Source: Amycolatopsis bartoniae
GTDB taxonomy: Bacteria; Actinomycetota; Actinomycetes; Mycobacteriales; Pseudonocardiaceae
DNA: 64,000 bases
Assembly: GCF_014191255.1 (NCBI RefSeq)
Contig: NZ_JACHWH010000003.1
Span: forward strand, 129,501-193,500
Direction: 5' to 3'
Shown: positions 37,181 through 50,336 of the stretch, piece after piece
Numbering within the stretch: the stretch's first letter is position 1
Layout of the letters: every line of letters begins with the position of its first letter
The notes under the pieces: generated by a model
Database searches by the model: none
Seen by the model: the letters and a program-made list of their open reading frames with translations, nothing else
Told to the model about the DNA's origin: nothing
Translations under genes and position numbers: made by a program

Positions 37181-38041
37181 CTACTCCCGCACCTGGCCGA
37201 CCCCGGCCCAGTAGAACGGGCGCACCGACTCAGCCTTCAGCTTCGGGAACAGCGTCTCCACCGCGTCGGGGCGCCAGTCCGTCAGGTGGACGATCCCGGG
37301 CGGGACGAGGTCCATCCCGTCGAACCAGGACTCGAACTCCGCCCGGTCCCGCAGCCACGCCGGGTTCTGCGTGTTGCGGTAGGACTCCGCCAGCGCACTG
37401 ATCTGCGCGGCGCCCTCGGCCGGGGCGTCGTCGGTGGTGATGTGGCTCGCCGCCCACCAGCTGCCGGGCGCGAGCTTGCGGCGGTAGCGCGCGACGATGC
37501 CCGGCACGTCGTCCCCGCCGCCCACGAAGTGCAGCACCGACACCATCAGCACGCACACCGGCTTCGAGAAGTCGATCAGCTTCCGCGTGACGGGGCTGGC
37601 GAAGATGTCCTCCGGGTCACGCAGGTCCGCGCGCACAACGCCCGCCCACTTCGTGATGCCCTGCCGGTCCAGGATGATCTCCGAGTGCGCCACCGCGACG
37701 GGCTCGTAGTCGACGTACACCACCCGCGCTTCCTCACCCGGCGCGTGCTCGCGCACGATCTCGTGCACGTTCCCCACCGTCGGCACGCCGGAACCGAGGT
37801 CGAGGAACTGCCGGATCCCCGCGTCCAGCGCGGCCCGCACGACGCGGCCCAGCCACTGCCGGTTGGACATCGCCAGCGGTTTGATCAGCGGGAACTGCCG
37901 GTCCGCCTTCTCCCCGAAGATCTGGTCCACCACGTAGTTGGTGGTACCGCCGAGGTACCAGTCGTAGATCCGCGCGGAGCTCGGCTTGTCCAGGTCGACC
38001 TGTCTGGGTGCTTCCGGCGCGTGTTCGGCGTTGCTGGTCAC
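37181..38041 (-). CDS. SAM-dependent methyltransferase, SAV2177/Methyltransf_19 family
   Basis: A 286-residue protein of the actinomycete-specific family formerly DUF574. Family signatures: KPSSARIYDWYLGGTTNY near residue 19, FLDLGSGVPTVGNVHEI (SAM-binding motif I, about 79-95), VVYVDYEPVAVAHS, and ADLRDPEDI. Substrate unknown; genomes often hold many copies. The GTG start at 38041 overlaps the LacI stop codon (GTGA), with GGAG upstream, so it is cotranscribed with the LacI gene, though a functional link to the catabolic operon is not evident. Confidence 0.9.
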   Translation of the reverse strand: MTSNAEHAPEAPRQVDLDKPSSARIYDWYLGGTTNYVVDQIFGEKADRQFPLIKPLAMSNRQWLGRVVRAALDAGIRQFLDLGSGVPTVGNVHEIVREHAPGEEARVVYVDYEPVAVAHSEIILDRQGITKWAGVVRADLRDPEDIFASPVTRKLIDFSKPVCVLMVSVLHFVGGGDDVPGIVARYRRKLAPGSWWAASHITTDDAPAEGAAQISALAESYRNTQNPAWLRDRAEFESWFDGMDLVPPGIVHLTDWRPDAVETLFPKLKAESVRPFYWAGVGQVRE

Positions 38042-39138
38042 TTCCGCTCCTCGCGGGCTAGGTCCTCCTGAGGGGAAGCAGGATAGCGTGCCGTCGATTC
38101 GCGGACGACGAGCTTCGCCTTCAGCTGCACGTGCTGCGGCGAACGGTTCGCCGACCCGGCCAGGCGGTCGAGCAGCTGCCTGCCCGCGCGGGCCCCGAGG
38201 TCGTACGTCGGCTGCTCCACGATCGTCAGTTCCGGGCGCACCAACGTGGTCCACGGCTCGTCGTCGAACCCGACCAGCGACAGGTCCGCCGGCATCGACA
38301 ACCCCCTGTCCTGCGCCGCGCGGTAGGCGCCGGACGCGAGCACGTTGTCGGTGCACAGCACGGCCGTCGGTGGTACCGCCGAATCGAGCAATGAAGTCAT
38401 GGCGTCGTAAGCGGATTCCCGCTCGTAGCGCGCCGGGGCCACCAGCCGCTCGTCGATCTCGATGCCCGCCGCCTGCAGGGCCCGCACGTACCCGCGAAGC
38501 CGGACGGCGCTGGGAAAGAGGCCGCGACGGCGGCTGCCCGAGCGGACGCGCGCGAGCTGGTCGCCCGCCTCCGTGATCACGCCGATCCGCCGGTGCCCCA
38601 GCTCCAGCAGGTGCGCCACCGCCTCCGCGGCCGCGTGCTCGTTGTCGATCGTGATGGTGTCGGCGTCGGGCACCCCGGTGACCTGCCGGTCGAGCAGCAC
38701 GACGGGCACGCCGACGTCCATGGCGTGCTTGAGGTGCGCCCCGTCGCCGGGCTGCGCCGCGGCGACGATCATCCCGTCCACGCGTTTCTCCGACATCACG
38801 GTGACCGCGCGCTGCTCGGCCTCCCGCGTGCCGCCCGTGTTGGCGAGCAGCACCTCGAAGCCCGCGGGCGAGGTCACGTCCGTGATGCCCCGCAGCGCGG
38901 TGGCGAAGAACGGGTTCGCGACATCGGTGACCACCACGCCGATCGTCTGCGTCGAACCGGTGACCATGCTGCGCGCCAGCCCGTTGGTGCGGTACCCGAG
39001 CTCGGCCGCGGCGGCGAGCACGCGCTCCCGGGTGCGGTCGCTGACCTGCCCGTAACCGCCGAGCGCGCGCCCCGCGGTCGCGGTGGACACGCCCGCCGCC
39101 CGCGCCACGTCGATCAGCGACGCACCGTGCGTGCTCAC
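38038..39138 (-). CDS. LacI family transcriptional regulator
   Basis: A 366-residue LacI/GalR regulator. The N-terminal domain SLIDVARAAGVSTATAGRALGG and hinge YRTNGLARSMVTG are followed by a periplasmic-binding-protein-like core (IGVVVTDVANPFFATALRGI, VDGMIVAAAQ, SLVGFDDEPWTTLVRPELT). GTG start at 39138. It is divergent from the hydantoinase/GGT operon; two perfect 14-bp palindromes between them are the likely operators, making this its repressor. The inducer is probably the operon's substrate. Confidence 0.93.
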   Translation of the reverse strand: MSTHGASLIDVARAAGVSTATAGRALGGYGQVSDRTRERVLAAAAELGYRTNGLARSMVTGSTQTIGVVVTDVANPFFATALRGITDVTSPAGFEVLLANTGGTREAEQRAVTVMSEKRVDGMIVAAAQPGDGAHLKHAMDVGVPVVLLDRQVTGVPDADTITIDNEHAAAEAVAHLLELGHRRIGVITEAGDQLARVRSGSRRRGLFPSAVRLRGYVRALQAAGIEIDERLVAPARYERESAYDAMTSLLDSAVPPTAVLCTDNVLASGAYRAAQDRGLSMPADLSLVGFDDEPWTTLVRPELTIVEQPTYDLGARAGRQLLDRLAGSANRSPQHVQLKAKLVVRESTARYPASPQEDLAREERK

Positions 39139-39200
39139 CCGGCAGCCTCCTCGGTCACGGGCCTTTTACGGCCCAGGTCTTGACCGAGAGTACTACCGGC

Positions 39201-39214
39201 TGAGAACCTTCTCA
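39201..39214. promoter_or_regulatory. LacI-type operator 1
   Basis: TGAGAACCTTCTCA, a perfect inverted repeat with 6-bp arms and a 2-bp centre, in the gap between the LacI gene and hyuA. Confidence 0.85.
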
Positions 39215-39236
39215 TCCAACAGCTACTGAGAAGGTT

Positions 39237-39250
39237 CTCATTCCTGGAGC
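39237..39250. promoter_or_regulatory. LacI-type operator 2
   Basis: TGAGAAGGTTCTCA is the reverse complement of operator 1, centred 36 bases away and 13 bases before the hyuA start codon. Two sites on one promoter suggest cooperative or looped repression. Confidence 0.85.
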
Positions 39251-39262
39251 GAGGCCCAGCAC

Positions 39263-41308
39263 ATGACACTTCGGATCGGTGTCGACACCGGTGGCACGTT
39301 CACCGACGTCTGCGCCCTGGACGAGCAGACCGGCCGCTTCTTCGTGCGCAAGGTCGCCAGCACGCCCGACGACCCCGGCCGCGCCATCGTGACGGGGGTT
39401 TCGCAGCTGCTCGACGAGATGGGCGGGCGCGACCTCGGCGAGGTCGGCTACTTCGCCCACGGCACCACGGTGGGCACGAACGCGCTGCTCACCGGGCGCG
39501 GGGCGCGCACCGGCCTGCTCACCACGGCCGGGTTCCGCGACCTGCTGGAGCTGGGCCGTGGCCGGCGGCCGTCGCTGTACGACCTGCAGGCCGACAAGCC
39601 CGCCGCGCTGGTGCCGCGCGACCGCAGGCTGGAGGTGGCCGAGCGCGTGAGGCACGACGGCCGGGTCGAGCGCGCGCTCGACGAGGACGAGGTTCGCGCG
39701 CTGGCCCGCCGGCTGCGGGAGCAGGGCGTCGAGTCGGTCGCCGTCTGCTTCCTCTACAGCTTCGTGCACCCCGGGCACGAGCGGGCGGTGGAGCGGATCC
39801 TCGCCGAGGAGCTGCCCGGCGTGCACGTCTCGGTGTCCTCCGCCGTGCTGCCCGAGTTCCGCGAGTACGAGCGACTGTCCACAGTGGTCGTCAACGCCTA
39901 CATCGGACCGGTCGTGGCGCGCTACCTCGCGCGGCTGCGGACGAGGCTGGCCGAGCTCGGCCTGCGGGCGACGCCGCACGTGACCCAGTCCAACGGCGGC
40001 ATCATCCCGTTCGAGGCCGCCGAGCGGATGCCGTCGCGCATGGTGCTGTCCGGCCCGAGCACGGGCGTGGTCGGCGCGGCCGAGATCGCCCGCGCCGCGG
40101 GATTTCCGGACGTCATCACGTTCGACGTGGGCGGCACGTCGTCGGACGTCTCCCTCGTGCAGGACGGCGTGCCGAAGGCGGCCAACGGCACGGAGATCGA
40201 CGGCAGGCCCGTGCGGGCGCCGATGCTCGACATCCACACCGTCGGCGCCGGCGGCGGTTCGATCGCGTGGATCGACGCGGGCGGCGCGCTCAAGGTCGGC
40301 CCGGGCAGCGCAGGGGCTGACCCCGGTCCGGCCTGCTACGGCCGCGGCACCGAACCCACCGTCACCGACGCGAACGTGGTGCTGCGGGTGCTCAACCCCG
40401 AGTACCTGCTGGACGGGCAGATGAAGATCGACGCCGAGGCCGCGCGGACCGCGGTGTCCACTGTGGCCGGTCCACTCGGGATGGACGTGCTCGAAGCCGC
40501 GCAGGGCGTCATCCGCGTCGTCACCGCGAACATGGCCCGCGCGATCCGGGTCATCTCCGTGCAGCGCGGCTACGACCCGCGCGACTACGTGCTGGTGCCC
40601 TTCGGCGGAGCGGGCCCGCTGCACGCCGTCCGGCTCGCGCGGGAGCTGGGCATGAAAACGGTGCTGGTGCCCGAAACCCCCGGCGCGCAGTGCGCCGCCG
40701 GGCTGCTGATGACCGACATCCGCGCGGACTTCCTGCGGACCCACCTCACCGCGCCGGAGGAGTCCGTGGTGGCGGAGGTGTTCGCCGAGCTGGCGGAGTC
40801 GGCGACGGCGTGGCTGGCCGGGGAGGGCGTGCCCGCGGAGCACCGCCGCACCGAGCGGTGGGCCGAAATGCGGTACGCGGGCCAGAACTACGAGCTGCCC
40901 GTGCCGGTGCCCGAAGGGGAGGTCACCGCCGACACGATCACCCAGCTGACCAAGCGGTTCGCGGCCGAGCACGAGCGGCTCTACGGCTACTCCACGGCCG
41001 AGGACGAGGTCCAGGTGGTCACGTTCCGGCTGCGGGCGGTCGGCGAGGTCGCGCGGGCCGAGCTGCACCGCACGCCGCTCGGCGACGCCGACGCGAGCGC
41101 GGCCGTCCGCGCCACGCGAGAGGTCTACCTGCCCGAAAGCGACGGCTTCACCGAATGCCCGGTGTACGACCGGCGGCTGCTCGCGCCGGGGCACCGGATC
41201 GAAGGCCCGGCGGTCGTCGAGCAGATGGACACCACCACCCTGCTGCTGCCCGGGGACGTGGCCGTGGTCGACGAGCTGCGCAACCTGATCGTGGCGGTGG
41301 GCGAATGA
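39263..41308 (+). CDS. hyuA: Hydantoinase/oxoprolinase subunit A family protein
   Basis: A 681-residue ATP-dependent hydantoinase/acetophenone carboxylase-type subunit. RIGVDTGGTFTDVCALDE at the N-terminus is the ATP-binding phosphate loop of the actin-like fold; FAHGTTVGTNALLTG (about 71-85), SNGGIIPFEAAERMPSRMVLSGP and FDVGGTSSDVSLV follow. With the B subunit it opens cyclic amides such as 5-oxoproline or hydantoins at the cost of ATP. First gene of the LacI-controlled operon, directly after operator 2. The exact ring substrate is not readable. Confidence 0.93.
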   Translation: MTLRIGVDTGGTFTDVCALDEQTGRFFVRKVASTPDDPGRAIVTGVSQLLDEMGGRDLGEVGYFAHGTTVGTNALLTGRGARTGLLTTAGFRDLLELGRGRRPSLYDLQADKPAALVPRDRRLEVAERVRHDGRVERALDEDEVRALARRLREQGVESVAVCFLYSFVHPGHERAVERILAEELPGVHVSVSSAVLPEFREYERLSTVVVNAYIGPVVARYLARLRTRLAELGLRATPHVTQSNGGIIPFEAAERMPSRMVLSGPSTGVVGAAEIARAAGFPDVITFDVGGTSSDVSLVQDGVPKAANGTEIDGRPVRAPMLDIHTVGAGGGSIAWIDAGGALKVGPGSAGADPGPACYGRGTEPTVTDANVVLRVLNPEYLLDGQMKIDAEAARTAVSTVAGPLGMDVLEAAQGVIRVVTANMARAIRVISVQRGYDPRDYVLVPFGGAGPLHAVRLARELGMKTVLVPETPGAQCAAGLLMTDIRADFLRTHLTAPEESVVAEVFAELAESATAWLAGEGVPAEHRRTERWAEMRYAGQNYELPVPVPEGEVTADTITQLTKRFAAEHERLYGYSTAEDEVQVVTFRLRAVGEVARAELHRTPLGDADASAAVRATREVYLPESDGFTECPVYDRRLLAPGHRIEGPAVVEQMDTTTLLLPGDVAVVDELRNLIVAVGE

Positions 41309-41328
41309 ACGACGCAGGAGGAAACCCG

Positions 41329-42957
41329 ATGCAGGATCCCGTGCTGGTGGAGGTGATCGGCTCGGCGCTGTCGTCCATTGTGGAGGAAATGGGTGAGACG
41401 CTGGTGCGCGCCGCGTACTCCACCAACATCAAGGAGCGCCGCGACTGCACCGCGTCGGTGTTCGACGCGTGCGGCCGGATGCTCGCGCAGGACGAGGGCG
41501 GCTCGCCGCTGCACCTGGGCTCGCTGATGGGCATCGTCGACGAGATCACACGCCGCTACCCGGCGGGCACGATCGACGAGGGCGACACGTTCATCGGCAA
41601 CGACCCGTTCACCGGCGGCGGCTCGCACCTGCCGGACATCGTGCTGGTCTCGCCGGTGTTCACCGCCGGCGAGATCACCGCGTGGGTCGCGAACCTGGCG
41701 CACCACGCCGACTTCGGCGACCGCGGGCACGCGCACATCTTCCAGGAGGGCCTGCGCATCCCGCCGGTGCGGCTGATGCGCCGGGGCGAGCTGCAGACCG
41801 ACCTGTTCGAGCTGATCCTGCTCAACTGCCAGGTGCCGCACGAGCGCCGCGCCGACCTGCGGGCGCAGATCGCCGCGAACCGGCTCGCCGTCACCCGGTT
41901 CACCGAGCTGGCCGGGCGTTACGGTCGGGACACGCTGGTCGCCGCGAGCGAGGCGCTGCTGGACTACACCGAGCGGCGCACCCGCGCCGCGATCGCCAAG
42001 GTGCCGGACGGCACGTACGCGTTCACGGACCGCTTCGACTGCCCGGAACTGGACGAGGAGCTCGATCTCGGGGTGACCGTGACGGTCACCGGGGACGAGG
42101 CCGTCTTCGACTTCACCGCGCCACCCCAGGTCCGCGCGAGCGTGAACGTGGTCTGGACCGCCCTGCACGCGGCCGTCTACTACTCGCTCAAGACGCTGGT
42201 TGACCCCGACATCGTGCCCAACGCGGGGTTGCACCGGCCGGTCACGATCAACGCCCCGCGGGCCTCGGTGCTCAACTGCGTCGAACCCGCAGCCGTCAAC
42301 GGCCGCAGCGAGACCTGCCAGCGCGTGGTCGACCTGATCCACGGCGCGCTCGCCGCCGCGGTCCCCGAGACGGTCACCGCCGCGAGCAACGGCGCGAACA
42401 CCGGCGTGCACTTCTCCGGTGTGGACAGCCGGACCGGCCGCTACTTCGTCTACCTGGAGACGATCGGTGGCGGCTGCGGTGCGCGGCTGGGCAAGGACGG
42501 CATGGACGGCGTGCAGGTGCACATGACCAACACCAGCAACCTGCCGGTGGAGGCGCTGGAGACCGAGTACCCGCTGGTGGTCGAGGAGTACGCGCTCATC
42601 GACGGCTCCGGGGGCGACGGGCGCACGCGTGGCGGCATGGGCATCCGGCGCACCGTGCGCGTGGAGGAGGCCGACGTGCACTTCTGGCTCGACACCTCAC
42701 GGCAGCGCTCGCGCCCGTGGGGGTTGTTCGGCGGTGAGCCGGGGGAGCGGGCCGGAATGGAGCTTTCCAAGGGGGCGCAACCGATCGAGCACGGCTACAC
42801 CAGGCTCCAGCCGGGCGACCGCGTGTCGGTGCTGACCGCGGGCGCGGGTGGTTACGGGCCACCGTCCGAACGGGACGCCGAGCGGGTGCGGCGGGATGTG
42901 GCCGAGGGCCGCATCTCCGCCGAGCGGGCCCGCGAGGTGTACGGGGTGGAGTCGTGA
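41329..42957 (+). CDS. hyuB: Hydantoinase/oxoprolinase subunit B family protein
   Basis: A 542-residue B subunit. Signatures are GEMGETLVRAAYS-like residues near 20, STNIKERRDCTASVFD, the IGNDPFTGGGSHLPDIVLV block (about 89-107) and NGRSETCQRVVDLIHGAL. ATG 41329 is chosen because AGGAGGAAA lies just before it; an in-frame ATG at 41305 lacks a site. The last bases overlap the Gfo/Idh/MocA gene by 4 bp. It pairs with hyuA to make the ATP-dependent ring-opening enzyme. Confidence 0.93.
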   Translation: MQDPVLVEVIGSALSSIVEEMGETLVRAAYSTNIKERRDCTASVFDACGRMLAQDEGGSPLHLGSLMGIVDEITRRYPAGTIDEGDTFIGNDPFTGGGSHLPDIVLVSPVFTAGEITAWVANLAHHADFGDRGHAHIFQEGLRIPPVRLMRRGELQTDLFELILLNCQVPHERRADLRAQIAANRLAVTRFTELAGRYGRDTLVAASEALLDYTERRTRAAIAKVPDGTYAFTDRFDCPELDEELDLGVTVTVTGDEAVFDFTAPPQVRASVNVVWTALHAAVYYSLKTLVDPDIVPNAGLHRPVTINAPRASVLNCVEPAAVNGRSETCQRVVDLIHGALAAAVPETVTAASNGANTGVHFSGVDSRTGRYFVYLETIGGGCGARLGKDGMDGVQVHMTNTSNLPVEALETEYPLVVEEYALIDGSGGDGRTRGGMGIRRTVRVEEADVHFWLDTSRQRSRPWGLFGGEPGERAGMELSKGAQPIEHGYTRLQPGDRVSVLTAGAGGYGPPSERDAERVRRDVAEGRISAERAREVYGVES

Positions 42958-43997
42958 TCCGCGCCGCGGTGGCCGGGTTCGGCGTGTCCGGGCGGGTCTT
43001 CCACGCCCCGTTCCTGGAGCACGACGCCGCCTACTCGCTCGACTTCATCGTCACCGGCAACCCCGGCCGCGCGAAGCAGGCCGCGGAGAAGTATCCGAAC
43101 GCGACTGTCCTTTCCGGACCAGCCGAGCTGTTCGACCGGGCGGCGGAGATCGACCTGGTGGTCCTCGGTACGCCGCCGGGCACCCACGCGAAACTGGCCA
43201 CCGCCGCCCTCGACGCCGGGCTGCACGTGGTGGTGGACAAGCCGTTCGTGCCCTCCAGCGAACAGGGCACGGCGCTCGTCGAGCACGCCCGCCGCGCGGG
43301 CCGCGTGCTGACGGTGTTCCAGAACCGCCGCTGGGACGGCGACTTCCGGACGGTACGGAAACTCGTCGACAGCGGCGAGCTGGGCGAGGTGCACACGTTC
43401 GAGTCGCGGTTCGAGTGGTGGAAGCCGCAGGGCCCGCGCGACTGGAAGGCCCGCACGACGGCGGCCGAGGGCGGCGGCATCCTGTTCGACCTCGGCACCC
43501 ACCTGGTCGACCAGGCCGTGCAGCTGTTCGGCCCGGTGGAGCGGGTGTGGGCGGACCTCGCGCGCCTCGGTCCCGGCGAAGCCGAGGACGACGCGCTCGT
43601 CGTGCTGGGCCACGCGAACGGCACGCGCTCGCGGCTGTCCATGTCCGGGCTCGCCGCCCTGCCCGCGCCGCGGTTCCACGTGCTCGGCTCGAAGGCCGGG
43701 TACACGAAGTGGGGCCTGGACCCGCAGGAGTCCGCGCTGGCGGCCGGAGCCCGGCCGGGCGACGACGGTTTCGGCGTGGAGCCAAGGGAAAACTGGGGCA
43801 CGCTCGGCGTCCGCGGCGACACGCGGCCGGTCGAGCCGGAACGCGGCGACTACGGCGAGTTCTACCGGCTCCTGGCGCCCGCGCTCGCGGGCGAGGGTGA
43901 GCCGCCGGTGGACCCGGCCGACGCGGTGGACGTCCTGCGAATTCTCGAACGGGCGCACGCCCGGACCGACACGGAGGAGGGGGAGCTTTCCCGATGA
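42954..43997 (+). CDS. Gfo/Idh/MocA family oxidoreductase
   Basis: A 347-residue NAD(P)-dependent oxidoreductase. An N-terminal Rossmann fold (AGFGVSGRVFHAPFL, then VVLGTPPGTHAKLATAAL) precedes the conserved VVDKPFVPS loop with its active-site Lys, near residue 97. The C-terminal alpha/beta domain has GGGILFDLGTHLVDQAVQLFG. Likely oxidises a sugar-like or cyclic alcohol/hydroxy acid. GTG start overlapping hyuB by 4 bp; overlaps the next gene by 4 bp as well. Confidence 0.9.
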   Translation: MIRAAVAGFGVSGRVFHAPFLEHDAAYSLDFIVTGNPGRAKQAAEKYPNATVLSGPAELFDRAAEIDLVVLGTPPGTHAKLATAALDAGLHVVVDKPFVPSSEQGTALVEHARRAGRVLTVFQNRRWDGDFRTVRKLVDSGELGEVHTFESRFEWWKPQGPRDWKARTTAAEGGGILFDLGTHLVDQAVQLFGPVERVWADLARLGPGEAEDDALVVLGHANGTRSRLSMSGLAALPAPRFHVLGSKAGYTKWGLDPQESALAAGARPGDDGFGVEPRENWGTLGVRGDTRPVEPERGDYGEFYRLLAPALAGEGEPPVDPADAVDVLRILERAHARTDTEEGELSR

Positions 43998-45094
43998 GCG
44001 AAGGCAAGCACGTCGTGGTGGTGGGCGGCGGGATTCTCGGCGTCTCCACGGCCACGCACCTGCGGCGCGACGGCGTTCCGGTGGTGCTGGTGACCGAGGG
44101 CGAGCTGGCGGACGGCGCCTCCGGGCGTTCGCTGTCGTGGCTGAACTCCGCGGGCTCGCGCTCGGCGGCTTACCACGCGCTGCGCGTCACCGGGATCGAC
44201 CGCTACCGCACGCTGTTCGCGGCCGATCCCACCCGCGAGTGGCTGCGGTTCGACGGCGCCCTGCACTGGTCGGCCGACCGGAACGCGATGGAGCAACGGC
44301 ACCGCGCCGAGACCGCCCACGGGTACGACTCGAAGCTGGTGCCGCCCGCCGAGGCGGAGCCGGCCCTCGACCCCGCGGCGGTTCCGGACGTGGCCGTGCA
44401 CAATCCCGGTGAGGGCTGGGTTTCTCTGCCGCACCTGATCGAGCACCTGGCCGCGGAGTTCACCCGGCTCGGCGGCCGGATCGTGACCGGTGCGGGCAAG
44501 GCGAGCGTGACCACCGCCGGGGGAGTGGCGACGGGAGTCGTCACCGCGAGTGGCGAGCGGTTCGAGGCCGGCGCCGTCGTCGTGGCCTGCGGCGCGGCGA
44601 CTCCCGCGGTGGTGGGCGAACTAGGAGTGTCCATTCCGGACTCGTCGCCGCTGTCGATGCTGGTGGTCACCGAACCGGCCGGGACTGCGCTGTCCGCCGT
44701 GCTGAACACCCCGCGGGTCTGCCTGCGCCCCAACCCCGGGCACACGATCGCGATGGACCAGGACTGGTACACCGACCGGATCGCCGAGGCACCCGACGGC
44801 ACCTGCACCATCGACGAGTCCGTGGTCAAGGAACTGACCGCCGAGGCGTCCGCCCTGCTGGACGGGGACGTGGAGCTGACCGCCGCGTCGTGGAAGCTCG
44901 GCCGCAAACCCGTGCCCGGCGACGGCGAACCGGTGTTCGGCGAGCTCGCCGAGGTGCCGGGGTGTTTCGTCGCCTTCACCCACTCCGGCGCCACGCTCGG
45001 CCTCATCGCCGGGGAGCTGCTGGCCGGCGAGATCCGCACCGGCACCCGCCACCCGATGCTCGACCCCTTCCGCCCGGAACGCTTCCGGCACTGA
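43994..45094 (+). CDS. FAD-dependent oxidoreductase (DadA/DAO type)
   Basis: A 366-residue D-amino-acid-oxidase-fold flavoprotein. The dinucleotide-binding motif VVVVGGGILGVSTATHL starts at about residue 8, and the C-terminal GCFVAFTHSGATLGLIAGELLA completes the FAD site. Probably oxidises the alpha-carbon of an amino acid or imino acid released by upstream steps (proline-, sarcosine- or glutamate-like). Overlaps the preceding gene by ATGA. Confidence 0.9.
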   Translation: MSEGKHVVVVGGGILGVSTATHLRRDGVPVVLVTEGELADGASGRSLSWLNSAGSRSAAYHALRVTGIDRYRTLFAADPTREWLRFDGALHWSADRNAMEQRHRAETAHGYDSKLVPPAEAEPALDPAAVPDVAVHNPGEGWVSLPHLIEHLAAEFTRLGGRIVTGAGKASVTTAGGVATGVVTASGERFEAGAVVVACGAATPAVVGELGVSIPDSSPLSMLVVTEPAGTALSAVLNTPRVCLRPNPGHTIAMDQDWYTDRIAEAPDGTCTIDESVVKELTAEASALLDGDVELTAASWKLGRKPVPGDGEPVFGELAEVPGCFVAFTHSGATLGLIAGELLAGEIRTGTRHPMLDPFRPERFRH

Positions 45095-45118
45095 CCCCGC
45101 TGACTCCGAGGAGAACCG

Positions 45119-46462
45119 TTGACCGACCACGACATCCGGGAGACCGAGCTGCCCGAACCACCCGCCACGGACCTGCGCACGCGCCGCCGGGTCCTGCTGT
45201 CCGCGATGCTCGGCAACGTCGTCGAGTACTACGACTTCGGCCTCTACGGCACGCTGGCGGTCGTCATCTCCCACCAGTTCTTCCCCGCCGGGGACGCCAC
45301 CGCCGCGCTGCTGTCGACCTACGCGGGGCTCGTGCTGTCGTACGCGCTGCGGCCGGTGGCGGCCATGGTGCTGGGCCCGCTGGCCGACCTGCGCGGCCGC
45401 CGGTTCGTGCTGCTGCTGACGATCGCGGTGATGAGCGCCGGGACCGCCGGGATCGGCGTGCTGCCCACCTACGCCGCGATCGGCATCGCGGCACCGGTGA
45501 TCCTGCTGCTGTGCCGGCTGTTGCAGGGCGTCGGCGCGAGCGTCGAGTACACCACGGCGGCCAACTTCATCTTCGAGCACGAGCACGGCAACCGGCGCAA
45601 CTACCTCGCCGGGCTGAGCGTGGCGTCCACCTCGATCGGCCCGCTGCTGGCGACGCTGGTGTCCTATGTGGTCATCGCGGTGCTGCCGGCGGAGGCGTTC
45701 GACGACTGGGGCTGGCGGATCCCGTTCCTGCTGGCCGTGCCGATGGCGCTGGTCGGCATCTACATCCGGCGGCACGTGGAGGAAACGCCGCAGTTCCGGG
45801 AGATGGCCGCGCTCGCCGACGAGGGCAAGGTCAAGCAGACGCCGTTCCGCACGGCCGTGCGGGAGCACTGGGGCGTGATGCTGCGGGCGATCGGGCTCGG
45901 CGCCGGGCAGCGGGTGGGCTCGTTCGTCATCCAGGCGTACTTCGTCACGGCGATGGTCAAGGCCGGGTTCGCGGAGAACAACGCGCTGCTGGCGTCGCTG
46001 CTGACCTACGCGATCGGGCCGGTGCCCGCGATCTGGGGCGGTAAGCTCGCCGACCGGGTCGGGGCGAAGATCCCGCTCGTCGTGGGCTACGGGCTCTTCG
46101 TGGTGCTGACCGTGCCGACGTTCCTGGCCATCGGCTCGGGCTCGCTCTGGCTGGCCGTGGTCGCGGTGGTGGCGTTCACGTTCATCAACAACTTCGTCGG
46201 GGCCCCGCTCACCACCGCGTACGTGATGAGCTTCCCGGCGGAGGTGCGGGCCAGCGCGTCCGCGTTGAACTACAACATCGGCACCACGGCACTGGGTTCG
46301 ACCGCCGGGCTGATCGCGGTGTGGCTGTTCGACCTGACCGGCACCAACGCCACGTTCGGCTGGTACATGACCGGGTTCTGCGTGCTGTCGATCCTCGTGG
46401 CGCTGTTCGCGATGCCCCACTCGGTGGACGAGCAGCGGAACAAGTCGCTGGCGGGGTCCTGA
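45119..46462 (+). CDS. MFS transporter of the metabolite:H+ symporter (MHS) type
   Basis: A 447-residue twelve-helix symporter. The MHS signature MLGNVVEYYDFGLYGTLA lies in TM1, then GPLADLRGRRFVLLLTI as loop 2-3 motif, and RRHVEETPQFREM after TM6, as in ProP/ShiA/KgtP. It likely imports the substrate of the operon (an organic acid, betaine or pyroglutamate-type compound). TTG start at 45119 behind GAGGAGAA; its TGA shares a base with the ATG of the gamma-glutamyltransferase gene. Confidence 0.9.
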   Translation: MTDHDIRETELPEPPATDLRTRRRVLLSAMLGNVVEYYDFGLYGTLAVVISHQFFPAGDATAALLSTYAGLVLSYALRPVAAMVLGPLADLRGRRFVLLLTIAVMSAGTAGIGVLPTYAAIGIAAPVILLLCRLLQGVGASVEYTTAANFIFEHEHGNRRNYLAGLSVASTSIGPLLATLVSYVVIAVLPAEAFDDWGWRIPFLLAVPMALVGIYIRRHVEETPQFREMAALADEGKVKQTPFRTAVREHWGVMLRAIGLGAGQRVGSFVIQAYFVTAMVKAGFAENNALLASLLTYAIGPVPAIWGGKLADRVGAKIPLVVGYGLFVVLTVPTFLAIGSGSLWLAVVAVVAFTFINNFVGAPLTTAYVMSFPAEVRASASALNYNIGTTALGSTAGLIAVWLFDLTGTNATFGWYMTGFCVLSILVALFAMPHSVDEQRNKSLAGS

Positions 46463-48042
46463 TGGACCGGCGGACCGCCGGCGAGCTCGCGCGCCGGGCC
46501 GCCTACGGGCGGAAGGAGCCCGTCGAGGCCCGGCGCGGGATGGTCGTCACCTCGCACCCGCTCGCCGTCCGCTCCGGGCTCGACGTGCTGCGGGAAGGCG
46601 GCACGGCGTGCGACGCGGCCCTCGCCGCGGCGGCCACGCAGCTGGTCGTCGAGCCGCACATGACGGCGCTGACCGGCGGCCTGGAGCTGCTGTACTGGGA
46701 CGCGGGCACCGGCGGCGCGAGCTACCTCAACGGCAACGTCGCCGCGCCGCTCGCGCCACTGCCGGGGTTCACCGGCGCCGACCTCACCACCGGCCGGGGC
46801 GTGCCGGTGCCCGGCTGGTGGCCGGCGTTCCGTGCCGCGCACGAGCGGTTCGGCGGCGTGCCGCGGGCGCGGTTGCTGCGGGACGCGATCTTCCTGGCGC
46901 GGGACGGGTTCGCGGTGCACCCGTACCTGTTCGGCGAGGTGTACGCGCATCGCGCCGAGCTGGGCTGCCACGAGCAGGGGCGGGAGGCGTTCCTGCCCGG
47001 TGGCAGCCTGCTCGGGCCGGGGGAGACGCTGCGGCAGGAGCGGGTGGCGCGCACGCTGGAACGGCTGCGGGACGAGGACCTGGACTACTACCTCGGGGAC
47101 TTCGCGCGGGCGGTCAGCGCCGAATGCCGCCGCGGCGGCGGGGTGCTCACCCGCGAGGACTTCGCCGCGTACCAGGCCCGGTGGCACACCCCGCTGCGTG
47201 GCACCTACCGGGACGTGGAGATCGTCGCGTCCGCCCCGCCCGACGACGGGGGCTGCCAGCTGATCGAGGCGCTGAACCTGCTGGAGCTGACGGACCTGCC
47301 GTCGTGGGGACCGTCCTCAGTGGACACGCTGGACCTGCTGGTGGCCGTGCACAACGAGGTCTACTACGCCCCACCTCGCACGGCCGCCACCGACGTGGAA
47401 GCGTTGCTGTCGAAGGACTACGCGGCCCGCCGTCTGGAGCGGCTGGGCTCTGCGCCGTCCCCGGCCGCGGTCCCCTCGCCGGGAACGATCCACGTGACGG
47501 TGGTGGACGAGCAGGGCAACGTCGCCTCGGTCACGCACTCGCACATGGCGTCACCGTGGGTGAACGGGCTGTTCGCCGAGGGCTGCCAGCTCTCCGGGGG
47601 CGGCTCGTTCTTCCAACGCGGCATGCCGTGGCCGGGCGAGCGGGCGACGGTGTACCTCGCGCCGAACCTGGTGCTGCGGAACGGGGTTCCGGTGCTCGCA
47701 TCGGGTTCGCCGTCGGTGTCACTGGTCGCGTGCGTGCTGCAGAACCTCGTGAACCTCGTGGACTTCGGCCTGTCCATCGAGGAGTCCGTGGCGGCACCGC
47801 GGTTCGGGGTGCGCCCGCACGAGCCGTCCGCGGGCTGGCTGCCGGGGGTGACCCTGGAGCACGGCTTCGACCCGGCGGTGGAGCGCGAGTTCCGGCGGCG
47901 CTGCGGTGAGCGGGGGTTGTGGCTCAAGGACCTCGGCCCGTGGCATTCGCTGACGGGCAACTTCGAGGGCGTGGTGCTTTCGGGCGGGGTGCTGCGGTCC
48001 TGTGCGGACCCGCGGCGGAACGGGGCGGCTGAGGGTTTCTAA
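46462..48042 (+). CDS. ggt: Gamma-glutamyltransferase family protein
   Basis: A 526-residue Ntn-hydrolase of the gamma-glutamyltransferase family. GMVVTSHPLAVRSGLDVLREGGTACDAALAAA at the start (about 27-58) and the precursor cleavage site with the nucleophile Thr in PGTIHVTVVDEQGNVAS (near residue 342) are visible; the usual second Thr of the TTH motif is Ile here. GMPWPGERATVYLAPN is less canonical than in true Ggt, so a cephalosporin-acylase- or oxamate-like substrate is possible. No signal peptide, unlike classic periplasmic Ggt. Last gene of the operon; it may generate gamma-glutamyl or pyroglutamate units for the hyuAB enzyme. Confidence 0.87.
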   Translation: MDRRTAGELARRAAYGRKEPVEARRGMVVTSHPLAVRSGLDVLREGGTACDAALAAAATQLVVEPHMTALTGGLELLYWDAGTGGASYLNGNVAAPLAPLPGFTGADLTTGRGVPVPGWWPAFRAAHERFGGVPRARLLRDAIFLARDGFAVHPYLFGEVYAHRAELGCHEQGREAFLPGGSLLGPGETLRQERVARTLERLRDEDLDYYLGDFARAVSAECRRGGGVLTREDFAAYQARWHTPLRGTYRDVEIVASAPPDDGGCQLIEALNLLELTDLPSWGPSSVDTLDLLVAVHNEVYYAPPRTAATDVEALLSKDYAARRLERLGSAPSPAAVPSPGTIHVTVVDEQGNVASVTHSHMASPWVNGLFAEGCQLSGGGSFFQRGMPWPGERATVYLAPNLVLRNGVPVLASGSPSVSLVACVLQNLVNLVDFGLSIEESVAAPRFGVRPHEPSAGWLPGVTLEHGFDPAVEREFRRRCGERGLWLKDLGPWHSLTGNFEGVVLSGGVLRSCADPRRNGAAEGF

Positions 48043-48108
48043 CGGTACTGAGGTCCGTTTTGTGAGGCCCCGTGGCGCGGGCAATGGGGGAACCGGTATC
48101 TTCCCAAT

Positions 48109-48128
48109 TAAGTCAGCTGACTGACTTA
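48109..48128. promoter_or_regulatory. Palindromic operator before second MFS-Ig gene
   Basis: TAAGTCAGCTGACTGACTTA: perfect 8-bp arms (TAAGTCAG and CTGACTTA), with a nested perfect 12-bp palindrome AGTCAGCTGACT at 48111-48122. It lies 15 bases before the start codon. No regulator gene is adjacent, so the binding protein is encoded elsewhere. Confidence 0.7.
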
Positions 48129-48143
48129 GACGGGAGCCCCCTG

Positions 48144-50336
48144 ATGACCCCCTCCTCTGCCACCGGCGTGCGGCCCAACGCCGTCGTCGCGGTGCTCGCC
48201 TTCGGCGGGATCGTGGTCTCGCTGATGCAGACCCTCGTGATCCCGCTGGTCCCCGAACTGCCGAAGCTGCTCAACGCCTCGCCGTCGGACGCGACGTGGG
48301 CGATCACCGCCACGCTGCTGGCCGCCGCCGTCGCCACGCCGACCGTCGGGCGGCTCGGCGACATGTACGGCAAGCGCCGCATGCTGCTGTTCAGCATCGT
48401 GATGCTGGTGGCGGGCTCGGTGCTGTGCGGGCTGTCGAGCAGCCTCTGGCCCATGGTCGCCGGCCGCACGCTGCAGGGGCTGGCCTCCGGCGTGATCCCG
48501 CTGGGCATCAGCATCATGCGCGACGAGCTGCCCGCTGAACGGCTCGGCAGCGCGATCGCGCTGATGAGCGCCTCGCTCGGCGTCGGCGGTGCGCTCGGCC
48601 TGCCCGCCGCCGCGCTGATCGCCGACAACTTCGACTGGCACGTGCTGTTCTGGACCGCCGCCGTCCTCGGCGTGGTCGCCGGCGTGCTCGTGCTGTCGCT
48701 GGTGCCGGAGTCGCACGTGCGCACCGGCGGCCGGTTCGACGTGCCGGGCGCACTCGGCATGTCGGTCGCGCTGCTGGCCCTGCTGCTGGGGATCTCCAAG
48801 GGCGCCGACTGGGGCTGGGGCAGCGGCCGCACGTTGGGCCTGTTCGCCGTCGCCGTCGTCGTGCTGCTGGTGTGGGGCTGGTGGGAGCTGCGCACCCGGC
48901 AGCCGCTGGTGGACCTGCGCACCACCGCGCGCCGCCAGGTGCTGCTGACCAACATCGCGTCCGTGGTGTTCGGGTTCGCGATGTTCGCGACGTCGCTGGT
49001 GGTGCCGCAGCTGCTGCAGCTGCCGAAGGCGACCGGTTACGGGCTCGGGCAGACCATGCTCACGGCCGGTCTGGTGCTGGCACCGAACGGTCTGGTGATG
49101 ATGGTGGTGGCGCCACTGTCGGCGAAGGTGTCCCGGGCCAGGGGCCCGAAGGTGACGCTGATGATCGGCGCGTTCGTGGTGGCCGTCGGGTACGTCCTGT
49201 CGACCGTGATGATGGGCTCGGTCTGGCAGCTGCTGATCGCCACGTGCGTCATCGGTGCGGGCATCGGGTTCGCCTACGGGGCGCTGCCCGCGCTGGTGAT
49301 GGGCGCGGTGCCGGTGTCGGAGACGGCCGCGGCCAACAGCCTCAACACCCTGATGCGCTCGATCGGCACGTCGGTGGCGAGCGCCGTCGCGGGCGTGATC
49401 CTCGCGCACCTGACGACGAGGCTCGGCCCGGTGAACGTGCCGTCCCAGGGCGGTTTCCGCGTGGTGCTGGTGATCGGCGCGGCCGCCGCGGTGGTGGCGC
49501 TGCTGATCGCCGCCTTCCTGCCCGCCCGGAAACAAGCGGCTGCCGCTCCCGCGGCGCCTGCTGCCTCTCGGGTGCCGTCGCCGGGGGAGCTGACGGGGCA
49601 GCTGCGGACCGAGGGCGGTGCCGCCCTGTCGCACGGCGTGGTGACGGTGACGCGTCCGGACGGCGGGCAGGTCAGTCGCGCCCGGGCGGACGCCGAGGGG
49701 CGCTACGCCGTGTCGGGGCTGCCTTCGGGCTCGTACACGGTGATCGTCACGGCGAGCGGGTTCCAGGCGGAGGTCGCGCGGGTGTCGCTCAACGGTTCCG
49801 GTGTGGTGCGGGACTTCGCGCTCAGCGGCGACGGCGTCGTGACGGGGTTCGTGCGCGCGGCCGACGGGAGCCCGGTGAGCGGGGCGACCGTGACCGCGAC
49901 GGGGGCCGCGGGCGAGGTGCTCGGCAGCACGGTTTCGGGCCAGGACGGCGGTTTCCACCTCGCGGGGTTGCCGAGGGGGGAGACGACCGTCGTGGCGCAG
50001 CCGCCGAACCGCCGCCCGCGGGCGGTGCCGGTGGTGGTCGGCGGCGCGGAGCCGGCGGTGGCGGAGCTGGTCGTGGACGCGAACGGGCTGCTGAGCGGCA
50101 CGGTCACCGGCCCGGACGGTGACAGCATCGCGGAGGCCACGGTGACGATCACCGACGCGGCGGGCACGGTCGTCGCGACGACGGTCACCAAGGCGGACGG
50201 CCGGTACGAGCTGTCCTACCCGGAGCCCGGTGAGTACACGGTGGTCACGAGCCTCTACACGCCGACCGTCCAGCAGGTGAGCCTGACGGCAGGCCGGCCG
50301 GCGACGGTGGACGTGGACCTGGAGACGACGAGCTGA
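48144..50336 (+). CDS. MFS drug exporter (DHA2/EmrB type) fused to three Ig-like repeats, second copy
   Basis: A 730-residue protein with the same plan as the gene at 31510. A DHA2 transporter occupies about residues 1-465 (SLMQTLVIPLVPELPKLL in TM1, GRLGDMYGKRRMLL loop motif, GIGFAYGALPALVMG). An Ala/Pro-rich linker precedes three 82-83-residue carboxypeptidase-regulatory-like repeats (about 483-565, 566-648, 649-730), each with a GxVxxxxGxP-type start and a DGRY/DGGF core. The transporter halves of the two genes are only moderately similar while the tail plan is identical. ATG 48144 follows a palindromic operator; convergent with the AraC gene 3 bp away. Confidence 0.9.
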   Translation: MTPSSATGVRPNAVVAVLAFGGIVVSLMQTLVIPLVPELPKLLNASPSDATWAITATLLAAAVATPTVGRLGDMYGKRRMLLFSIVMLVAGSVLCGLSSSLWPMVAGRTLQGLASGVIPLGISIMRDELPAERLGSAIALMSASLGVGGALGLPAAALIADNFDWHVLFWTAAVLGVVAGVLVLSLVPESHVRTGGRFDVPGALGMSVALLALLLGISKGADWGWGSGRTLGLFAVAVVVLLVWGWWELRTRQPLVDLRTTARRQVLLTNIASVVFGFAMFATSLVVPQLLQLPKATGYGLGQTMLTAGLVLAPNGLVMMVVAPLSAKVSRARGPKVTLMIGAFVVAVGYVLSTVMMGSVWQLLIATCVIGAGIGFAYGALPALVMGAVPVSETAAANSLNTLMRSIGTSVASAVAGVILAHLTTRLGPVNVPSQGGFRVVLVIGAAAAVVALLIAAFLPARKQAAAAPAAPAASRVPSPGELTGQLRTEGGAALSHGVVTVTRPDGGQVSRARADAEGRYAVSGLPSGSYTVIVTASGFQAEVARVSLNGSGVVRDFALSGDGVVTGFVRAADGSPVSGATVTATGAAGEVLGSTVSGQDGGFHLAGLPRGETTVVAQPPNRRPRAVPVVVGGAEPAVAELVVDANGLLSGTVTGPDGDSIAEATVTITDAAGTVVATTVTKADGRYELSYPEPGEYTVVTSLYTPTVQQVSLTAGRPATVDVDLETTS

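Follow-up and report, generated by a model that had tools for sequence, protein, structure and literature searches.

A LacI-type operon of Amycolatopsis bartoniae joining HyuAB and a GGT-fold hydrolase to a soc-like oxidase pair: a candidate pathway for Amadori compounds and their lactams

Genes and operators of the locus

We analyzed a stretch of 64,000 nucleotides from Amycolatopsis bartoniae (contig NZ_JACHWH010000003.1, positions 129,501 to 193,500; hereafter the window), in which six genes follow a divergent LacI-family repressor gene. In order, they encode HyuA, HyuB, a Gfo/Idh/MocA oxidoreductase, a flavin adenine dinucleotide (FAD) oxidase, an MHS-family symporter and a protein with the fold of gamma-glutamyltransferase (GGT) (Table 1). 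A previous sequence-only reading of this DNA had named these families, and Pfam recovered every one of them. As judged from the sequence, the six genes, the LacI gene and the twin operators are one LacI-repressor-type operon, which upholds the single import-and-breakdown operon proposed in that reading. We consider it very probable that this operon serves the catabolism of Amadori compounds.

Three of the five gene junctions overlap with certainty, namely HyuB/Gfo-Idh and Gfo-Idh/FAD oxidase by 4 bp each and MHS/GGT by 1 bp. Whether HyuA/HyuB adds a fourth overlap depends on the HyuB start: the ATG at 41305 would give one of 4 bp, whereas a start at 41329, an ATG preceded by AGGAGG, leaves a gap of 20 bp. 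The FAD oxidase and MHS genes are separated by 24 bp, with an AGGAG of the latter's own, so that the tight overlaps described earlier for all junctions hold for three or four of the five and fail at this one. The region 38900-48300 gave no match to a sigma-70-type promoter, a weak test for an actinobacterium.

The twin LacI operators reported earlier were confirmed. The pattern TGAGAANNTTCTCA has exactly two sites in the whole 7.76-Mb genome, both at this locus, and a reversed control pattern has none. Similarly, in six other genomes bearing the locus, the pattern occurs twice only (five genomes) or once (one genome), and the reversed control is again absent.

Table 1. Genes and operator sites of the operon, with predicted roles
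Feature	Coordinates	Strand	Remarks
LacI-family repressor gene, divergent	38038..39138	-	Pfam LacI + Peripla_BP_3
Operator copy 1, TGAGAACCTTCTCA	39201..39214		One of only two such sites in the genome
Operator copy 2, TGAGAAGGTTCTCA	39227..39240		26 bp from copy 1
HyuA, ATP-binding subunit, hydantoinase/oxoprolinase/caprolactamase type	39263..41308	+	Pfam; predicted lactam-activating
HyuB, metal-binding subunit	41329..42957 (alternative start 41305)	+	Pfam Hydantoinase_B, 573 bits
Gfo/Idh/MocA oxidoreductase	42954..43997	+	Pfam; predicted reducer of a sugar dicarbonyl
FAD oxidase, DAO superfamily, SocD-like	43994..45094	+	Pfam DAO; predicted amadoriase
MHS-family MFS symporter, TTG start	45119..46462	+	TIGR00883, 303 bits, under the cut-off of 443; predicted importer
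GGT-fold Ntn hydrolase	46462..48042	+	Pfam; Thr342 nucleophile kept, acyl pocket rebuilt; predicted gamma-amidase

Putative deglycation genes in the window and in related loci

The FAD oxidase and the Gfo/Idh enzyme resemble genes for the catabolism of santhopine (deoxyfructosyl-glutamine). The oxidase is 51% identical over 354 amino acids to an oxidase of pAtC58, which adjoins repABC and is followed outward by a Gfo/Idh gene, ABC genes and a divergent LacI gene; from this gene order, we take these two proteins to be SocD and SocC, respectively. Santhopine catabolism on pAtC58 is attributed to socR and socABCD beside repABC (PMC4231840). The likeness is closer to a plasmid of Arthrobacter StoSoilB13, with 64% identity for the oxidase and 58% for the Gfo/Idh protein encoded directly before it, and the window has the same arrangement of Gfo/Idh directly 5' of the oxidase. 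Every isolate obtained from the santhopine-treated soil (StoSoil) had soc genes, and isolates carrying them degraded santhopine (PMC8262997), although the main text of that paper does not mention StoSoilB13 by name.

The window oxidase matched 262 plasmid records at E 1e-20, mostly from Rhizobium, Agrobacterium and Klebsiella; homologues of about 58% identity lie on plasmids of Klebsiella (20 records) and Raoultella (2 records) (H5-H26). Fungal fructosyl peptide oxidases were weak sequence matches (E from 7.6e-5). The AlphaFold2 model of the oxidase (confidence score pLDDT 93) is nearest to the flavin-containing opine dehydrogenase 7fgp (structural similarity score TM 0.90, 27% identity). Our literature search on amadoriase/SocD found no paper, and the window oxidase is predicted to be an amadoriase by homology only.

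We then examined the gene neighborhood in other genomes, taking one genome per species and using the GGT-like protein as the only query, so that associations with the partner genes were not built into the search. Among the 28 loci obtained, 24 were kept (59-89% identity); the other four (L034, L036-L038; 28-30%) lacked every partner gene at E 1e-10 and were left out. The 24 loci span Amycolatopsis, Pseudonocardia, Prauserella, Streptomyces, Streptosporangium, Actinoallomurus, Microbacterium, Brevibacterium, Sphingomonas, Pseudoxanthomonas and Luteimonas, and the gene order is kept in related genomes. HyuA is present in 23 of them (missing only from L016, which begins at the edge of its contig), HyuB in 22 (all but L016 and L020, at contig edges), an MHS homologue in 21 (all but L017, L021 and L031) and LacI in 20, with GntR-UTRA instead in L018-L020 and a contig edge in L016.

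The GGT-like protein is rare, being found at E <= 1e-100 in 6/298 genomes of the order and, in the phylum, in 1/396, which is the window's own; the FAD oxidase was found at E <= 1e-90 in 2/396 genomes of the phylum. None of the 10 plasmid matches listed for the GGT subfamily exceeded 33% identity. As a control, the window genome's five remaining HyuAB loci, taken as regions of 18-20 kb, had no oxidase, Gfo/Idh, GGT-like, LacI, MHS, SIS or PfkB homologue at E 1e-8.

An Amadori-type module is present in 23/24 loci, in one of two forms or in both. Eight loci carry the SocD-like oxidase only, accompanied by Gfo/Idh in seven (L016 is cut by the contig edge), and 13 carry instead an SIS protein and a PfkB protein resembling the FrlB deglycase and the FrlD kinase. 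In both Microbacterium loci (L039, L040), oxidase, SIS, PfkB and HyuA genes stand in a row, so that the FrlB/FrlD-like pair occurs in 15/24 loci in total. For the five SIS/PfkB proteins scanned, the top NCBIfam models were fructoselysine-6-phosphate deglycase and fructoselysine 6-kinase, although no score reached its curated cut-off (82-112 of 430 bits for SIS and 189-197 of 247 bits for PfkB). The best PDB match of the Streptomyces SIS protein was a putative fructose-amino-acid-6-phosphate deglycase (6.6e-50). In one Streptomyces locus, a second LacI-SIS-PfkB set lies immediately downstream of the operon (L030, 11731-15079), and in Brevibacterium two M20 peptidase/amidohydrolase genes stand directly 5' of HyuA (L031, 3018-5710).

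The window operon itself has neither an FrlD-like kinase nor an FrlB-like SIS gene. No FrlB-type SIS protein was found in the window genome (best E 5.9e-16, in a 639-amino-acid frame; the kinase was not searched genome-wide), nor in the six window-type genomes including it, where the best match was 3e-17 compared to 1e-97 and 4e-99 in Microbacterium. The SIS matches in these genomes were frames of 352-780 amino acids resembling GlmS or other SIS proteins. In the tree of GGT-like proteins, the oxidase-type rows form one clade (100/98), requiring 1 change against 6.9 in shuffles, which is consistent with a single exchange of the module.

The operators accompany both modules. Two TGAGA-A-NN-T-TCTCA copies, 22-26 bp apart, lie between LacI and the first gene, and twin TGAGAANNTTCTCA sites were present in 18/20 actinobacterial loci tested (8 of the oxidase type, window included, and 10 of the SIS type), with one mismatch in one of the two L015 copies and three copies in L032. 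The survey covered loci other than L016, L018-L020 and L031. Additionally, three soc loci harbor twin TGAGACCGGTCTCA-like sites with 2-3 mismatches to TGAGAANNTTCTCA, and the window LacI is 43% identical to the LacI beside pAtC58-type soc genes and 39% identical to a LacI of pTiChry5. Because the oxidase and Gfo/Idh match the santhopine pair and FrlB/FrlD-like enzymes replace them in relatives, the substrate very likely bears a sugar on nitrogen. The cyclic or amide substrate of the sequence-only reading is supported, but this sugar had been overlooked.

Outside the operon, Pfam identified a TetR, SIP, Fer2/NAD-binding and PNPOx set on the minus strand upstream, and an MFS gene and an aldo/keto reductase gene downstream. 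The MFS transporter at 48144-50336 of the window is an unusual fusion, whose C-terminal end matches the carboxypeptidase-regulatory-like domain three times.

Predicted ring-opening and amide-cleaving enzymes

Against N-methylhydantoinase HyuA reaches 517 bits, and against 6yra, a chain named 5-oxoprolinase, 412 bits, but it reaches only 304, 237, 236 and 155 bits against acetophenone/acetone carboxylase chains. We thus rejected a carboxylase identity, and the grouping with these carboxylases that the earlier reading had named as contrary evidence did not appear in these scores. The ATP motifs of HyuA (DTGGTFTD, DVGGTSSD and ADPGP, for phosphate/adenosine) are present and are kept in the 21-23 of 23 loci with the respective stretch aligned. 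HyuB has Asp39, His100, Asp103 and His125 (His126) at the metal positions of CapB, which were taken from PMC8453981 and checked by alignment to N-methylhydantoinase and 6yra; they are kept in 22/22 aligned loci. Other Amycolatopsis copies of HyuAB are 90% identical to that of the window. These motifs and scores support an HyuAB of the ATP-dependent ring-opening kind, as proposed before, while the scores against the CapA model NF050156 (603 bits) and the CapB model (262 bits) both lie under the cut-off of 1000. Its lactam substrate, like the substrate of the GGT-like enzyme, is inferred.

Opines are known to close into lactams (PMC4192606), and HyuAB has been proposed to open the lactams of succinamopine and rideopine on other Ti plasmids (PMC6733357, PMC8554961). 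On the chrysopine-type Ti plasmid pTiChry5, HyuA, HyuB, SIS and fructoselysine 6-kinase genes form a row, with a SocD homologue nearby (L063, 2882-8566 and 14941-22455). Chrysopine-type tumours presumably contain the lactam opine fructosyl-5-oxoproline. Direct descent linking the pTiChry5 row and that of the window is not supported, since HyuA is 46% identical. Together with SIS identities of 27-30% to the types described here (27% to the Streptomyces type), this suggests that an Amadori pathway gained HyuAB on more than one occasion, and the link on pTiChry5 is probably a separate joining. The plasmid also has another SIS-PfkB pair, with Xaa-Pro peptidase genes behind it. In five other plasmid regions (L064-L068), HyuAB with 56-58% identity to the window HyuA is found with SDR and FAD-binding oxidoreductase genes, possibly a general lactam-opine cassette.

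The last gene had been read as a Ggt-like gamma-glutamyltransferase, and an ordinary enzyme of this kind is not supported. In its AlphaFold2 model (pLDDT 93.9) the protein adopts the GGT fold (TM 0.80/0.84 against 2e0w, the E. coli enzyme), and Thr is kept at the autoprocessing site in all 31 subfamily rows. These rows amount to 28 distinct proteins, because the window's copy stands under both L003 and L051, and the proteins of L022 and L016 recur as L052 and L055. However, E. coli GGT residues R114, N411, Q430, D433, S462, S463, G483 and G484 correspond to N, A/C, G, F, V/I, Y, S and V in 31/31 rows, the alignment of R114 being the least certain. We take the first six to bind the alpha-amine and alpha-carboxylate of glutamate and G483-G484 to form the oxyanion site. 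The protein reaches only 193.7 bits against the GGT model TIGR00066 (cut-off 357.85), and on these two grounds we rejected an ordinary glutathione-type GGT. No hydrophobic signal stretch is visible at its N terminus. The lost alpha-amine site would fit a substrate substituted on the amine, and other substrates too.

The GGT-like gene is tandem-duplicated in Pseudoxanthomonas (L019, 10001-13220) and Luteimonas (L020, 8392-11611), with the altered pocket in both copies. A sister group of about 50% identity, mostly metagenomic, has Ser for the Thr nucleophile (G-S-N-H) in 14/61 aligned proteins (P0216-P0221, P0223, P0225, P0226, P0231, P0236, P0240, P0244 and P0245).

Proposed pathway, alternatives and known systems

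Sugars and amino acids yield Amadori compounds wherever they come together, and those made from glutamine are able to cyclise to lactams; a literature search for the lactam in foods found no paper. In our full model, the operon would take up N-fructosyl-glutamine (santhopine) and the lactam N-fructosyl-5-oxoproline and convert them to glutamate and sugar, probably via fructosyl-glutamate. The MHS symporter would bring the compound into the cell. HyuAB would spend ATP on opening the gamma-lactam ring of fructosyl-5-oxoproline, because the lactam nitrogen is not deglycatable by an amine oxidase or an FrlB-type enzyme. The cytoplasmic GGT-fold enzyme may attack the gamma-amide of open-chain fructosyl-glutamine, passing through an acyl-Thr intermediate and releasing ammonia (or an amine), as is presumed for FraE with fructose-asparagine. 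The SocD-like oxidase would convert fructosyl-glutamate to glutamate, glucosone and hydrogen peroxide, and the Gfo/Idh enzyme would reduce glucosone to a hexose. The substrate or an intermediate would free LacI from the twin operators. The assignment of a glutamine amide to the GGT-like enzyme, made by analogy with FraE (PMC4072780), is the weakest step.

We give the full model, with both lactam and amide entry, an even chance. A little short of that, and put forward tentatively, is the wider proposal of a dedicated Amadori-lactam pathway, in which ATP-driven HyuAB and a GGT-fold amidase acting on N-glycated glutamine would feed either of two exchangeable modules (SocD and Gfo/Idh, or kinase and FrlB) under one conserved LacI operator.

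Several observations weigh against these proposals. The mechanism proposed for 5-oxoprolinase phosphorylates an iminol tautomer (PMC8453981); an N-fructosyl lactam without N-H cannot form an iminol, and another activation would therefore be needed. The GGT-like step is not strictly needed, since SocD-type enzymes may take fructosyl-glutamine directly, and the 31 kb shown of pTiChry5 contain no GGT-like gene. The Gfo/Idh proteins of pAtC58 and the window are only 26% identical over 128 residues, and the oxidase model is farther from fructosyl peptide oxidase (TM 0.78, rank 43) than from opine dehydrogenase. Strict mutual exclusion of the two modules fails in both Microbacterium loci, which carry both and in which the TGAGAANNTTCTCA operator was not found; it is further weakened by a distant FAD oxidase (30-34%) beside LacI in 7/10 actinobacterial SIS loci. 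Finally, no Amadori module accompanies HyuAB and GGT on the 15-kb contig of the Brevibacterium locus.

The alternative that survives best, although we consider it unlikely, keeps the Amadori operon and changes the substrate to a glycated gamma-glutamyl peptide or amide, such as N-fructosyl-glutathione or a fructosyl gamma-glutamyl dipeptide. The GGT-fold enzyme would then strip the peptide and HyuAB would clear the cyclised fructosyl-5-oxoproline. The GGT fold itself speaks for this, as do the peptide-type ABC importers of Microbacterium, whose binding protein scores against the glutathione-binding GsiB among others, and the M20 peptidase genes beside the Brevibacterium HyuA. However, MHS symporters are transporters of small solutes, and they are present in 21/24 loci. 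That the protein no longer has a pocket for free gamma-glutamyl groups is not decisive, since this would fit any N-substituted substrate.

Less probable still is the breakdown of a sugar-free, opine-type N-substituted amino acid lactam (pyronopaline-like) by lactamase, flavin amine dehydrogenase and carbonyl reductase. HyuAB lies beside FAD oxidoreductase and SDR genes in 5/6 plasmid regions examined around HyuA matches (in the sixth, from Terrarubrum, SDR is present but the listed GMC oxidoreductase belongs to another family), and the DAO fold of the window oxidase is nearest to a flavin opine dehydrogenase. On the other hand, the two plasmid FAD proteins compared are about 25-29% identical to that of the window, and SIS and PfkB under the same operator in relatives point to a sugar. 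We regard as improbable the breakdown of an unglycated gamma-glutamyl amide, hydantoin or 5-oxoproline, in which the GGT-like enzyme would free a unit for HyuAB and the oxidase would take the released amine. The nearest PDB relatives of HyuA would suit such a pathway, but FrlB/FrlD-like genes or a SocD homologue occur in 23/24 loci, and the glutamate-binding residues of GGT are replaced throughout the subfamily. A creatinine/N-methylhydantoin pathway, with HyuAB as N-methylhydantoinase (the best PDB match of HyuA) and the FAD oxidase as sarcosine oxidase, was rejected as highly improbable, since Pfam detected no carbamoylase or creatinine deaminase among the operon genes and the oxidase follows SocD, reaching only 18.8 bits against sarcosine oxidase TIGR01377.

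The Amadori reading matters because the frl, fra and soc genes explain deglycation of amines and offer no route for nitrogen locked in an amide ring, a step for which this locus family is a concrete candidate. It would imply that two enzyme families, wrongly labelled hydantoinase and gamma-glutamyltransferase by automatic annotation, probably have a new specificity, and it offers a clean natural case of two unrelated deglycation modules swapped under the same operator. If true, this is an unrecognised nutrient pathway that is directly testable. The earlier statement that no such pathway had been described holds for the combination, of which we found no earlier mention as one pathway in open-licence literature; both halves are already described separately.

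Compared to known systems, the window HyuAB shares the two-subunit build and the ATP and metal motifs with CapAB, N-methylhydantoinase and 5-oxoprolinase, but it falls below the CapA/CapB cut-offs, and its proposed substrate is an N-glycosylated lactam. Similarly, the GGT-fold protein shares fold and Thr nucleophile with GGT and with the repurposed enzymes LmbA (6j3a) and HpxW (5hft), which act on non-gamma-glutamyl substrates; unlike GGT, it has replaced glutamate-binding residues and oxyanion Gly-Gly and no visible signal peptide. The pTiChry5 row resembles the window family in having HyuAB directly joined to Amadori-type deglycation genes, but is served by an ABC importer. In Salmonella, the fra (fructose-asparagine) system adds an amide hydrolase, the asparaginase FraE, to deglycation (PMC4072780). 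The kinase and SIS deglycase type of fra and of frl (fructoselysine) occurs in the window's relatives, whereas the window has oxidase and Gfo/Idh, with GGT-fold and HyuAB proteins for amide and ring opening. With the soc operons of pAtC58 and Arthrobacter, the window operon shares a divergent LacI, Gfo/Idh followed by a DAO-family oxidase, and twin palindromic operator-like sites with a TGAGA half-site. However, no HyuAB or GGT-like gene is among the genes listed at the soc loci, and since an MHS symporter replaces the ABC importer SocAB, we call the window operon soc-like rather than soc.

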